NCBI GenBank assembly: GCA_016209155.1
Contig: JACQWU010000012.1
Span: forward strand, 1 to 7,811
DNA from: Candidatus Desantisiibacteriota bacterium
Lineage (GTDB): Bacteria; JACRDZ01
Direction of reading: 5' to 3'
Length of the DNA stretch: 7,811 bases
This document shows, piece by piece, positions 1,891-7,811 of this stretch; positions within the stretch are counted from its first letter, which is position 1, and each line of letters begins with the position of its first letter. Below the pieces are notes generated by a model that did not search any database, was not told where the DNA came from, and saw nothing but the letters and a program-made list of their open reading frames with translations. The position numbers and the translations under genes are program-made.

Positions 1891-1905
1891 TCATTGATAA
1901 ATAAT

Positions 1906-4581
1906 ATGGAAATTTTTCTCAAAAAAATTGTTCTTATTTTTTTATTTTTTTTATACCTGCCAATCAATCTCACCGCTTTTGATAATATTTTATGGAGAAC
2001 TTTAAAAACAGAACATTTAACTGTATTCTATAAACCCGGGTATGAGATAAAAGCCCGGGAAGCTTTGAAAACATTGGAATATTACAGGCTGGATATAGAA
2101 AAGCTTACCGGTAATAAGAATCAAAAATTTTCAGTTGTTATTGAAGATGAAGGAACAATATCTGATGGACTGGCAAATCCCCTCACCTACTCAATGTCTT
2201 TTTCAACCTATCCTCCTTTAGCCGGTGAACTCGGTTTTACAGAGAACTGGTTTTCTGATGTAGGTATTCATGAATATACACATTTAAATAATCTGACGAA
2301 AGCAGGAGGAACTCCCGGAGTACTCACGAATCTATTTGGTAATTTATTGTTCCCAAATATATTACTGCCGGACTGGGCTATTGAAGGTTTTGCTGTATAT
2401 AGCGAATCACAATTTTCCCGATATCAGGGCAGATTAAATGATGGATTTTATGATGCATATATAGGTGCATGTGTGAATGGTAAACGTTTTCCATCTATTT
2501 TAAAAGCAACATATTCACCCCTGGAGTTTCCATATTACAACGGCAGTTATATTTTCGGCAGCGAATTTTTTCAATATTTATCCAAAATTTATGGGCAGGA
2601 AAAATTAACAAAATTTTTTGATATATATAGTTCATCGCTTTTGTCATATCTCTCACCTGTTTTACCTTATGCAGGGATTGACCGCGCAAGCGAAAAAATA
2701 TATGGCAAATCATTTCCTCTGCTATGGCGGGAATGGAATGAATATGAAAATAAAAGATTTGAAAATTTTAGCATGGAGGGAGAAAAGCTTACTGATTACG
2801 GATGGTTTATTGATGGGACCAGATTATATAATAATAATCTTTATTTCAAAAGACGCTATCCGGTTAAGACAGGAGCCTTTGATAATTTCTGGTTCAATGA
2901 AATAACAAAAAAAGATCTCTCGAATAATAAAGAAGAGACCATTGTATCCACTTCATCTTCTTTTACAGGGCAGATAAAAATTTATAATGATAAATTATAT
3001 TATACAGTTTTTGAGATAAAATCCGGATATGCCAATACTTCTTTTTCGGGGTTAGGATATTATTCAATTATTCACGAAAAAGATTTGCTGACAGGTAAGG
3101 ATTCAATTTTACTCTCGGACGAAATCCGGACATTTGATATTCTTCCGGATGGAGATATCCTGTATTTTAAGGATAAAAAACAGGAATTCGGCACACAAAT
3201 AAGCATTTATAAAATAAAAACAGGCGAAAAGAAATTGGTTTTTGAAACAGATTTTATTATTGATGATATTGCTCTTGATGAAAAAAGAATCGTTGTTTCA
3301 GCGCGTAAAGACTGGGAGAATTTTAGTTTATATATACTTGATCTGAAAGAAATGAATTTGACACCGCTTATTCACACCCCATTTTTTGAAACACACTTAA
3401 CCCTCAGTGAAAATAAACTTTTTTTTACAGCAAATTATGAAAAAACATATAGTATCTATTGCTATGATTTTGAGTCCAATAAAATATTTCGTCTGACAAA
3501 AAACGGTTTTTCGGATTTTTCCGCATTTGACAAAAAAGGACAGCTTTATTTTATCGGAATTAACTCAAACGGTTTTGATATTTATAAAAAAAAGGCTGAA
3601 TTCGATGAATTTAAAATACCTGATTTCCCGGTTTCAAAAAAACCTTCATTCATATTAAAAGAAAGTGATTTTACAAAAGGAGGATATGGTGATAATTTAA
3701 AAACTTTATTTCCGCCCGGAATATTACGTTTGCCTATCATTTCTTCTGACAGCGAAAGAACAATTGCAGGGTTTATTTTTGCCGGTGGAGATGCGCTGGG
3801 ACATTTTCCCGGATATTATGGAACTATTTATTATGATTCAAAAGAAAAAGACCCTCAATTCTCGATTAATTTTCCGGTCAGATTATTCGTCCCGTTTTAT
3901 TCATATATCAATCTTGAAAATATTGAGGAAAATTCTTTAAAATTTGATTTGACTTATCCATTTATTAATAGACTTTCACCCGGCATATCAAATCTTTCTG
4001 CAGGTTTAACGGATAATTTTACTGAAAATTTTGAAAAATTGGAAATGATACCCCATGTCTCTTTAAATCTCCGCTATCCCGGCACATTTGCCGGATTAAG
4101 TCTAAAACTGCCGGTTGAAAAAAAAAATATGGGATCGGATATAAACCGGACAGGGATATATGCAGACGCTGAACTTTCGCAGTACCTTCCGCTTAGAAAT
4201 AAATTACTTTTTAGAATAAAGGGTATTGATGACAGAGATAATCCTGACACTATTTTTCCTAAAATTCGCGGTTATACGGAGATAATCGAAGCAAAAAAAG
4301 GAGGTGTATTTTCTTTTGAATACACCAGACCGCTATTTCACATCCGAAAAGGTATCTGGAATCCGAATATCTTTTTTGAAGATTTAAATTTAGTTTTTTT
4401 TATAGATTCAGCCATACCATATAAAGATAATAATGATACAGTACAGTTTTCAAACGGACTGGAATTTCTTGTTGAGACAAAAACATTTTTATTCGCATCA
4501 CTTAATTCCGGAATCAGACTTTCTATAAATAAAGAAAAAGAGACCCGCGTAGAATTATTAATACAGTCAGTTATAAAGTGA
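1906..4581 (+). CDS. Exported zinc metallopeptidase with propeller-like middle and outer-membrane barrel-like C-terminus
   Basis: An 891-residue protein. Residues 1-24 are a signal peptide (K6-K7, a long I/L/F core, cleavage probably after L-T-A24). The peptidase domain (about 30-280) has HEYTH at 122-126 and LPDWAIEGFAVYSE with E160 as the likely third zinc ligand, the pattern of the gluzincin/peptidase-MA-like group; E123 would be the catalytic base. Residues about 286-575 are repeated four-strand-like segments (for example KIYNDKLYYTVFE, DILPDGDILYFKD, LTLSENKLFFTANY), as in TolB/WD40-like propellers. Residues about 620-891 alternate polar and hydrophobic positions (GGDALGHFPGYYGTIYY, FSFEYTRPLFHIRKGIW, and a final strand ending LLIQSVIK), resembling BamA-family surface-antigen barrels. 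It is therefore probably anchored in the outer membrane; substrate unknown. The ATG at 1906 is chosen over the TTG at 1894 because it gives a standard signal peptide; neither has a clear ribosome site. It lies 15 bases behind the regulator gene. Intact. Confidence 0.8.
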   Translation: MEIFLKKIVLIFLFFLYLPINLTAFDNILWRTLKTEHLTVFYKPGYEIKAREALKTLEYYRLDIEKLTGNKNQKFSVVIEDEGTISDGLANPLTYSMSFSTYPPLAGELGFTENWFSDVGIHEYTHLNNLTKAGGTPGVLTNLFGNLLFPNILLPDWAIEGFAVYSESQFSRYQGRLNDGFYDAYIGACVNGKRFPSILKATYSPLEFPYYNGSYIFGSEFFQYLSKIYGQEKLTKFFDIYSSSLLSYLSPVLPYAGIDRASEKIYGKSFPLLWREWNEYENKRFENFSMEGEKLTDYGWFIDGTRLYNNNLYFKRRYPVKTGAFDNFWFNEITKKDLSNNKEETIVSTSSSFTGQIKIYNDKLYYTVFEIKSGYANTSFSGLGYYSIIHEKDLLTGKDSILLSDEIRTFDILPDGDILYFKDKKQEFGTQISIYKIKTGEKKLVFETDFIIDDIALDEKRIVVSARKDWENFSLYILDLKEMNLTPLIHTPFFETHLTLSENKLFFTANYEKTYSIYCYDFESNKIFRLTKNGFSDFSAFDKKGQLYFIGINSNGFDIYKKKAEFDEFKIPDFPVSKKPSFILKESDFTKGGYGDNLKTLFPPGILRLPIISSDSERTIAGFIFAGGDALGHFPGYYGTIYYDSKEKDPQFSINFPVRLFVPFYSYINLENIEENSLKFDLTYPFINRLSPGISNLSAGLTDNFTENFEKLEMIPHVSLNLRYPGTFAGLSLKLPVEKKNMGSDINRTGIYADAELSQYLPLRNKLLFRIKGIDDRDNPDTIFPKIRGYTEIIEAKKGGVFSFEYTRPLFHIRKGIWNPNIFFEDLNLVFFIDSAIPYKDNNDTVQFSNGLEFLVETKTFLFASLNSGIRLSINKEKETRVELLIQSVIK

Positions 4582-4719
4582 GGGCAGACCCTATTCAAAA
4601 AATCCAAAAAATTACTTGACTTCTCATTAAGCCTTATGATTAAATAAACTAACTAAATTACTTGCAATCTGTGCAAAAATTACCTGCCTTAATATGTGAA
4701 TATGACATAAGGAAGTTAA
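4582..4719. promoter_or_regulatory. Intergenic regulatory region upstream of the large exported-protein gene
   Basis: This 138-base gap holds a possible promoter: TTGACT (4616-4621), an 18-base spacer and TTAAAT (4640-4645). It also holds an inverted repeat, TTGCA-N5-TGCAA (4662-4676), just downstream of the promoter-like block, three copies of an AAATTAC(T/C)TG motif (4609, 4655 and 4677), and a weaker dyad, TATGT-N7-ACATA (4693-4709), that touches the ribosome site AAGGAAG (4709-4715). The large gene therefore probably has its own promoter rather than depending on read-through. No terminator with a T-run follows the metallopeptidase stop codon. Confidence 0.4.
4662..4676. repeat. Inverted repeat TTGCA-N5-TGCAA, candidate operator
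   Basis: Two perfect 5-base arms are separated by 5 bases, a spacing of about one and a half helix turns between arm starts. It lies about 17 bases downstream of a possible -10 box and 44 bases before the next start codon, where a repressor would block transcription. The left arm overlaps one of the three AAATTAC(T/C)TG repeats. The function is inferred from position only. Confidence 0.25.
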
Positions 4720-4899
4720 ATGGGGAATATTTTTAAAAAAAGATATTTTTATTTTGAAAATTTAAAAAAAAATTCGCCTTGTAAATTTTTTTTGCCACAA
4801 ATCTTAATCATATATATTTTTTTTCAATTTTTTTATAGCATTCCTTTTTTATTCGCGGCAGATGAACTTTCTGCAAGATTAGACAAAAATAGTTTTTAA
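4720..4899 (+). CDS. Signal-peptide fragment of the large exported protein, ended by in-frame TAA
   Basis: Fifty-nine codons with a good ribosome site 4 bases before the ATG. The start is lysine-rich (FKKRYFYFENLKKN), followed by about 20 hydrophobic residues and a probable cleavage site before ADELSARLDKNSF. The next codon is TAA. On its own the product would be little more than a signal peptide, so it is best seen as the 5' piece of the following gene. The alternative, an independent small membrane protein, is unlikely because the downstream sequence continues in the same frame without an independent start. Confidence 0.55.
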   Translation: MGNIFKKRYFYFENLKKNSPCKFFLPQILIIYIFFQFFYSIPFLFAADELSARLDKNSF

Positions 4900-5001
4900 G
4901 CTTCCGGTACTAATGAAACCCTATTAACAGTTGATAAATTTGGAAGATACAGTATTAAGATTAAAAGCAATTCAGGTTCTGCTTTACAAATTGTAAATAA
5001 A

Positions 5002-7128
5002 ATGAGCGGCCCATGTGAAATGTCTGGTGAAATTAATAAAAAAGACGGCAGAATTGATACATTGCTGGATAATGGAACATATAAAATAATAACATATTCA
5101 GACCCGGCCTCTACCGGTGATTTGATTTTATCTGTAAATGATTTTAAAGAATTAAATCAACCGATTCCTATAATTAAAAAATACAAATTATATGAAAAAG
5201 AACTTAATGATTATGAAAAAATTTCATATTGGTTTAAAATTGATACTAAAACAACTGTATATTTTGATGCAATTGGAAGAAGTTTAAAGGATTTAAGAAT
5301 CTGGTTTGAAGGTAACTGGCTTATTGACCATGATTTATATTCAGAGACTATTGAAAATAGCTCCGGAAAACCAATGATATATTGCAGGCTTGTCGCTGTT
5401 TTAAATCCGGGATACTACCTTTTAACAGCATATAGCGGTGAACCTCTTAAATGGGCAAATGAAGATAATAAATATCCTTTTTACATTCGATATGGGATCC
5501 CAAAAATAAATGAAACAGATATGTTTAAAGATACTGTATCTCCATTTGGCTTTAATCATTATTTAATAACCTCAAACTCAGTTGTTGGTACAAATTATTT
5601 TCACCTAATGCTAAATGAAAGAAAAGAATTTGAATTGAAGATTTCTCAATGTGATAATCCCGGCAGAAGCAGTTTAAATTTTGAGGTGTTATTAGGAAAT
5701 AATAAAATAACCAATAAATCAAAAGATCCGGAATGTGAAATTAATATAAATAGCGGGTATCATAATATTATTGTTACTGTTATTGGACCTCCGGGTGAAA
5801 ATTTTGTTTTACAAAACTTTTCAAAATCTCATTTCCCTTATAAATTCTTCGGTGCAGGCGGAAAATATTGGATTTCGACAATACATTCCGGTTATTTTGA
5901 AGATAATATTGATATAAGCGGCTTTTTAGTAAGAATAAATATTCGCCAATCACAAATTGAATACTCTAAACCAATTGCGACAAATGTATTAACTTTAGAT
6001 AAAGACAAACCGTGGTCACGGCACATTAATTTATTAGATGATAATAAAATAGTATTTAATATCCCTGAAGACGGAGAATATCAGGTAACAACTTCAGGGG
6101 CAAAAGCATTATGTAAATTTGAACCTTATTTTATAAATTTGCCGGCGGGCTACCGAACACCTGATTTTGTACCTGCCAATCAATCTTTTCTATTACTTAA
6201 AGGATATAATCTTTTAAGTATAAAACCTATGAAAAAAGGAATATTGGATATAACGGTCAGTAAAGTTGAACAAAAAGATATTCAAAGTTTTAAAAACAGA
6301 ATAACAGGTTTTCTTGGTGATTTAGTACCCGATATACTGAAATCTAAACCGCAATTTATCTCATCAGATGAAATGACTGAATCATCTAACAATAATTTTA
6401 AAGGGAATTTCCAGATACCGGGTATTGAATTATATTATAATGACCAATTTACTTTATTTTTACATGATCAAGCAAGTAGAAATATTGGAGTCATAATAAG
6501 ACCGCATGCTTTAAATTTAGCAGAATCGCTTCCCGTTGTTTTAGCATCAGGGGAAATAATAAGTTTTCCATTTTATTTAAATGAAAATAGCAAACTAAAT
6601 ATTAAATCATTAAAAGAATCTGAGGTAATATGCAATATTGATAACAAACTTTTCGAAAATCAAGAATTAAATACAGGTCATCATATTATTGAACTAAAAA
6701 ATAATAGTAAAAAGACGGATGTATTCTTTGTGAAAAGCTATCCGGTAGAAAATGATATTACGTTTTATTTACCTGATAATATAGTTACTAATTTTTCACA
6801 ATTTCAAACTATTGAAGATAAAGCACCGGCATTTTTCGATCTTGGGTATAATGACAAAAAAACAATACTTTTTAATGTAAGTGCTCCTGGTCTATATAAG
6901 TTTGAGAGCCTTGGAAGATTAAAAACCAATTGTTTCATTCGTACTCGTATTGTTACAAATTTGTTTAGCGCGAGTGAAAATGGGATTGGAAATAATTTTT
7001 TATTAAATCAATATTTAAAAGATGGAGAATATCAAATTACTTTTGGGACACTGGAAAAATCCAGCGGCCATATGGGAATAAAATTAACTAAAACAGAAAT
7101 AATAAATGGAGGAAGGTTGAAACAGTAA
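5002..7128 (+). CDS. Main open segment of the large exported protein (708 residues from first ATG)
   Basis: This frame is open from 4900; an automatic caller would start at the ATG at 5002, but no ribosome site precedes it. The codons before it (TVDKFGRYSIKIKSNSGSAL and onward) look coding, so 5002 is internal to the original gene. The segment is a chain of beta-rich modules, each ending in a pattern like L-x-x-G-x-Y followed by alternating hydrophobics: LLDNGTYKIITYS, LNPGYYLLTAYSG, NINSGYHNIIVTV, IPEDGEYQVTTSG, LNTGHHIIELKN, VSAPGLYKFESLG and LKDGEYQITFGT. This recalls PPC-type (pre-peptidase C-terminal) beta-sandwich domains. No enzyme active-site motif is seen. It ends at the TAA at 7126-7128, just after the frame change. 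Confidence 0.6.
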   Translation: MSGPCEMSGEINKKDGRIDTLLDNGTYKIITYSDPASTGDLILSVNDFKELNQPIPIIKKYKLYEKELNDYEKISYWFKIDTKTTVYFDAIGRSLKDLRIWFEGNWLIDHDLYSETIENSSGKPMIYCRLVAVLNPGYYLLTAYSGEPLKWANEDNKYPFYIRYGIPKINETDMFKDTVSPFGFNHYLITSNSVVGTNYFHLMLNERKEFELKISQCDNPGRSSLNFEVLLGNNKITNKSKDPECEININSGYHNIIVTVIGPPGENFVLQNFSKSHFPYKFFGAGGKYWISTIHSGYFEDNIDISGFLVRINIRQSQIEYSKPIATNVLTLDKDKPWSRHINLLDDNKIVFNIPEDGEYQVTTSGAKALCKFEPYFINLPAGYRTPDFVPANQSFLLLKGYNLLSIKPMKKGILDITVSKVEQKDIQSFKNRITGFLGDLVPDILKSKPQFISSDEMTESSNNNFKGNFQIPGIELYYNDQFTLFLHDQASRNIGVIIRPHALNLAESLPVVLASGEIISFPFYLNENSKLNIKSLKESEVICNIDNKLFENQELNTGHHIIELKNNSKKTDVFFVKSYPVENDITFYLPDNIVTNFSQFQTIEDKAPAFFDLGYNDKKTILFNVSAPGLYKFESLGRLKTNCFIRTRIVTNLFSASENGIGNNFLLNQYLKDGEYQITFGTLEKSSGHMGIKLTKTEIINGGRLKQ

Positions 7129-7811
7129 GAATCACCACATTAAATCGCATATTGGAAAAAGAAGAAATAAAAGGCAGAGGACCGCATAAATTAACGATAA
7201 ATGAACCAATAAAAAATACATGGATAGAATCTCCATCTGATAAACCGCGGGAAAAAGATATTTACGAGTTTGAAATAACAGCGCCGGTTAATGCCAAAAT
7301 AAGCATAAATAACGATATGCAAGGGTTGCTAACTTTAAAAACAAACGATAAAGAATATAAAATTATTGATAAATTATATTACAAAAATATCTGGTCAGGG
7401 ATATTGGATATCGGGTCATATAGAATATTACTGGAAAACAGCAGAAAAAATAATTATCTAAAATATGAATTAAAAGTTGAAACTAATGAACTTATGCCGG
7501 GGCTTGATAAAACAATAAATGTTCCTGGGAAATTTGATTTAAATGTCGGGAAGCGGTCTTTACTGGAGATCTATTCTGATGGTAATATAGATTGTAAAGG
7601 TACCTTAACTTCTTATGAAAACAATGATTTAAAAATAATAAATGATGATATCCCCGATGACTGGAATTTTGGGATATCAACATTGCTTGACGAAGGAAAG
7701 TATAAACTTAAAATTACACCTGTTGGAAATAATAAAACAGGAAATAATTTCACGAAAATAATTTTTAAAGAATTGAATGAAAAAACAAATAATACTATTG
7801 CGAATTTTCCT
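7092..7811 (+). CDS. Continuation of the large exported protein in the -1 frame (partial, runs off window)
   Basis: This frame is open from 7092 to the last base (240 codons) without a credible start; the first candidates are a TTG at 7152 and an ATG at 7314, neither with a ribosome site. The sequence carries on the style of the preceding segment: DIYEFEITAPVNAKISINND, a GILDIGSYRILLEN module end, LDKTINVPGKFDLNVGKRSL and a STLLDEGKYKLKITPVG module end. The same modular pattern and the -1 offset support it being the same protein after a single-base deletion (or two-base insertion) between 7092 and 7128. Confidence 0.6.

Follow-up and report, generated by a model that had tools for sequence, protein, structure and literature searches.

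Interrupted genes and apparent pseudogenes have been described from draft bacterial genomes, and technical artefacts are acknowledged as a possible cause of apparent pseudogenes (PMC11017572). The gene studied here shares with them an in-frame stop and a frame change in an otherwise open homologous gene, and no difference from them could be shown. Two other described systems are close to the locus, namely, the type I operon, in which thioester alpha-2-macroglobulins (A2Ms) are encoded with PBP1c (PMC5764988), and the bacterial pre-peptidase C-terminal (PPC) domain together with the collagen-binding domains of clostridial collagenases.

The window, at 7,811 nucleotides, spans contig C331 from end to end. 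This contig belongs to G000, a metagenome-type draft genome with 352 contigs, a total length of 3.08 Mb, and a completeness of 79%. We consider it very likely that positions 4720 to 7811, together with positions 143 to 2020 of a second contig, C17 (L049), belong to a single gene whose exported product would have about 1700 residues, and that the TAA at 4897 to 4899 is a one-codon lesion of the substitution type without a function of its own.

A stop codon after the signal peptide

On the plus strand, a ribosome-binding-like AAGGAAG lies at the normal distance upstream of the start codon ATG at 4720 (4707 to 4722), opening a frame with 59 codons before the TAA. This N-terminal piece of the gene (4720 to 4896) comprises a signal peptide with the hydrophobic core ILIIYIFFQFFYSIPFLFA and the first ~13 mature residues, and aligns with the N-terminus of the homologue in genome G272 up to ...FDKTEF. 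The frame reads ...LDKNSF*ASGTNETLL..., remains open from 4900 to 7128 after the TAA, and offers its first ATG past the stop at 5002. All of this layout, from the start codon and signal peptide to the shared frame ending at 7128, had been described in the first-pass annotation and is correct letter for letter. The gene body follows in the unchanged frame from 4900 to 7115. A search of the window against Rfam gave no match.

The first-pass annotation had further held that the 34 codons between the TAA and the ATG at 5002 look coding, and both composition and homology bear this out. Their codon usage falls in the 21st percentile among 34-codon pieces of coding frames, with 5% of off-frame pieces scoring as high, and the 34 codons alone align to the homologue in G351 (L126) with 59% identity (E 1.2e-8). 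The scores of this short region against G351, G151, and G080 were each reached by 0 of 2000 shuffles, and the distant G266 gave no signal over those 34 codons.

Other features of the window include an 895-residue exported protein (1894 to 4581) with the zinc-peptidase motif HEYTH and no Pfam family, for which a weak TolB-propeller match (E 0.02) stays below the cut-off. The 52 bases at 578 to 629 are 94% identical to L044:5140-5191 and are perhaps a dispersed intergenic repeat, and two overlapping short frames at 644 to 933 on the plus strand may be another broken small gene.

Homologues across the stop

Homologues were reached by following the A2M relatives in other genomes upstream. In G151, G351, G080, G266, and G130, a single uninterrupted gene of 1438 to 1890 residues is found immediately before A2M, and a profile search of 386 genomes contributed a further intact copy, in G272, giving a relative in six other genomes (1438 to 1894 residues), with the stop present only in the G000 copy. 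A direct tblastn of 60 kin genomes returned the window itself as the sole match, and two pattern-based scans of named genomes returned no relatives of the window protein. Searched with tblastn, the region 4900 to 7125 aligned from its first residue to uninterrupted genes (G351, E 6e-114; G151, E 4e-104), and the G272 homologue matches the window gene with 35% identity (E 3e-115).

Both flanks of the stop are thus homologous to one uninterrupted gene, and the intact relatives lack the stop. All aligned homologues carry a sense codon at the TAA column, being Leu, Ala, or Pro. With G272, the best-matching relative, the alignment passes over the stop ungapped (LDKNSF*ASGTNE against FDKTEFLAKGKNE), and the TAA therefore occupies the place of one residue and not that of a lost stretch; because the alignment is gapless on both sides, 4897 was rejected as a junction with lost sequence. 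The suggestion that the signal peptide and the mature protein are parts of the same gene is hence upheld, as the homologues are unbroken through 4900 to 5001. The first-pass annotation had named homologues that start at 5002, without similarity upstream, as the outcome that would overturn it, and the alignment showed the opposite, with the similarity continuing through this region.

The first domain

The AlphaFold2 model of 4900 to 5520 (mean pLDDT 87, pTM 0.80) contains strands at residues 4 to 11, 15 to 22, and 28 to 33, all of which precede the ATG at 5002. Among the solved structures closest in fold are collagen-binding beta-sandwiches of PPC-like type, with PDB ID 5iku at E 3e-6 and, normalized by target length, 5sv5 at a TM-score of 0.64 and 1nqd at 0.57. 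The domain thus resembles the bacterial PPC and clostridial collagenase collagen-binding domains in its PPC-type beta-sandwich, but differs from the collagenases in not being joined to a peptidase. The Pfam search of the window protein gave no PPC match above the curated cut-off; the G266 homologue has a PPC match near the cut-off at the same place (25.4 bits versus 25.9). We infer that the gene product consists of repeated beta-sandwich domains beyond the first ones that were modelled.

A gene caller starting at 5002 drops the export signal, as the first-pass annotation had pointed out, and judging from the model, such a start would also remove the first three strands, leaving half a domain.

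A second break and the contig end

The earlier reading had the long frame end at 7128 and expected a single base change to restore a continuous exported protein, and neither point can be kept. At 7105 to 7128 on the plus strand, the coding-frame model and the homologue alignment indicate a second break, where ~75 residues are missing relative to the homologues and the coding-frame model changes frame at ~7115. The missing part spans residues 763 to 840 of the G151, 792 to 868 of the G351, and 750 to 832 of the G272 homologue. Because of this loss and the frame change, the TAA at 7126 to 7128 is a by-product and does not mark where the gene naturally ends, and because the gene is broken again here, one base change at 4897 is insufficient to restore it. 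A programmed frameshift at ~7115 was dropped, since ~75 residues are missing and no slippery sequence was recognised.

From 7116, the gene continues on the plus strand in another frame to the contig end at 7811, and its last third lies on C17. The piece in the other frame (7092 to 7811; best E 8e-37) and C17:143-2020 (best E 9e-29) match the same A2M-upstream genes, in order. The 141 bases that close the window (7671 to 7811) recur at the start of C17 (L049:1-141) as an exact reverse complement, and 141 is a common assembler k-mer. This inverted copy creates a false reading frame at the start of C17.

Broken genes elsewhere in the draft genome

The screen of other G000 genes covered roughly one fifth of the genome. 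We counted 23 internal N gaps, some of them flanked by repeated sequence, in 0.55 Mb of further G000 contigs. A glycosyl transferase and a histidine kinase are each split between frames. Three conserved genes have lost 41 to 47 residues together with a frame change (L035, L052, and L073). In CheB, a single in-frame TAA interrupts the gene, and the profile match covers positions 2 to 132 ahead of this stop and 134 to 174 behind it. On C17, the A2M gene opens with a signal-peptide-like segment (L049:2184-2300) whose ATG at 2184 is out of frame with the body of the gene; a TAA follows at 2240, and some of the N-terminus found in G151 seems absent there.

Such breaks in genes other than the one studied here argue for a genome- or assembly-wide fault. 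The frame-change screen that picked up the losses of 41 to 47 residues, run with G000 proteins as query, found no site in two genomes of the same phylum, and these two screened against each other showed one to two sites. The counted in-frame stops were mostly wrong-strand shadow ORFs and were discarded by eye, and several candidate frame changes were rejected as resembling normal operon junctions with TTG starts. We attribute the gene-breaking faults to the G000 assembly or, with lower probability, to genome decay.

Cause of the stop

In the sequence as assembled, translation initiated at 4720 would yield the signal peptide and a short tail, and no exported protein would be made from this copy, the TAA being a lesion of the assembled copy with one codon substituted and no function. 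We think that the TAA is probably an error in the consensus or the assembly of this metagenome bin, which is of low quality.

A genuine nonsense mutation, making the gene a recent pseudogene in the sampled population, is a serious alternative that we judge rather unlikely. It would agree with the second lesion in the same gene, where ~75 residues and the frame are lost, and with the out-of-frame signal peptide of the adjacent A2M gene; moreover, substitution errors are normally rare in assembled contigs. However, breaks of the same types also affect conserved genes that have no relation to this one, CheB among them, and this suggests a cause acting across the assembly; the gene also still keeps 742, 240, and 626 stop-free codons. 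That it is otherwise open over long stretches fits an error and a recent mutation equally well.

Translational read-through of the TAA, by recoding or suppression, would allow a regulated export of the long protein, and the frame does resume immediately, with the first domain needing the codons right past the stop. This reading is nevertheless highly improbable. All intact homologues have a sense codon at the site, so that the stop is not conserved, and we recognised no sequence context for read-through. In G000, TAA closes 130 of 196 long ORFs, more than any other stop codon, and is therefore not reassigned, and no stop anticodon was seen among the tRNAs found in the 79% complete bin. The downstream frame change would in any case be beyond repair by read-through.

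That 4720 to 4899 encodes a small exported peptide and the ATG at 5002 starts a separate intracellular protein, as a literal reading of the ORF list would have it, is scarcely credible and is refuted by the homologues found, which are continuous across the site, while inspection of the sequence recognised no ribosome-binding site of Shine-Dalgarno type before 5002, and initiation at this ATG would strip three strands from a domain that was modelled with confidence.

We see the TAA less as a special feature than as one among several gene-breaking faults of G000; it is in itself an ordinary finding and most likely no new mechanism.

An unnamed exported family beside A2M

On C17, the last part of the gene (143 to 2020) is followed by the A2M gene and then by a PBP1C-like gene. 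The A2M protein has bMG10, A2M, MG2, bait-region, and TED domains with a GCTEQ thioester motif, and the PBP1C-like gene, named from its sequence only, lies on the same strand ~0.86 kb downstream. A thioester CxEQ A2M beside a PBP1C-like gene is the arrangement of the type I A2M/PBP1C operon (PMC5764988), from which the locus differs in two respects: a gene for a giant, unnamed secreted protein stands ahead of A2M, both here and in another five genomes, and a toxin-antitoxin-like pair separates A2M from PBP1C on C17. By eye, this small gene pair (L049:7903-8588, minus strand) resembles a HigB/HigA module. Ahead of the A2M gene, at L049:2040-2150, there is an inverted repeat (ACCACAGAGG...CTCTGTGGTT).

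The genes for giant exported proteins directly upstream of A2M are L124:9010-14259, L126:11091-16487, L127:3667-7983, L128:2637-8060, and L129:6448-12120. Of the six other genomes with a member of the family, five have it adjacent to A2M; in the sixth, G272, the gene ends near a contig edge. Neither Pfam nor NCBIfam holds the family above cut-off, and a sequence search of the PDB gave no match. We tentatively suggest that these giant, multi-domain exported proteins may constitute a family not described before, encoded and working with a thioester-A2M clade in several bacterial families, for example, as a surface or periplasmic protease-trapping scaffold; the putative partnership with A2M is read from gene order.

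The TAA itself matters mainly for annotation, since the protein recorded by an automatic caller would lack the export signal as well as half a domain. The A2M-linked family is a mildly new by-product of this analysis, and a conserved unnamed family beside bacterial A2M could point to a partner of the bacterial protease-trapping systems.
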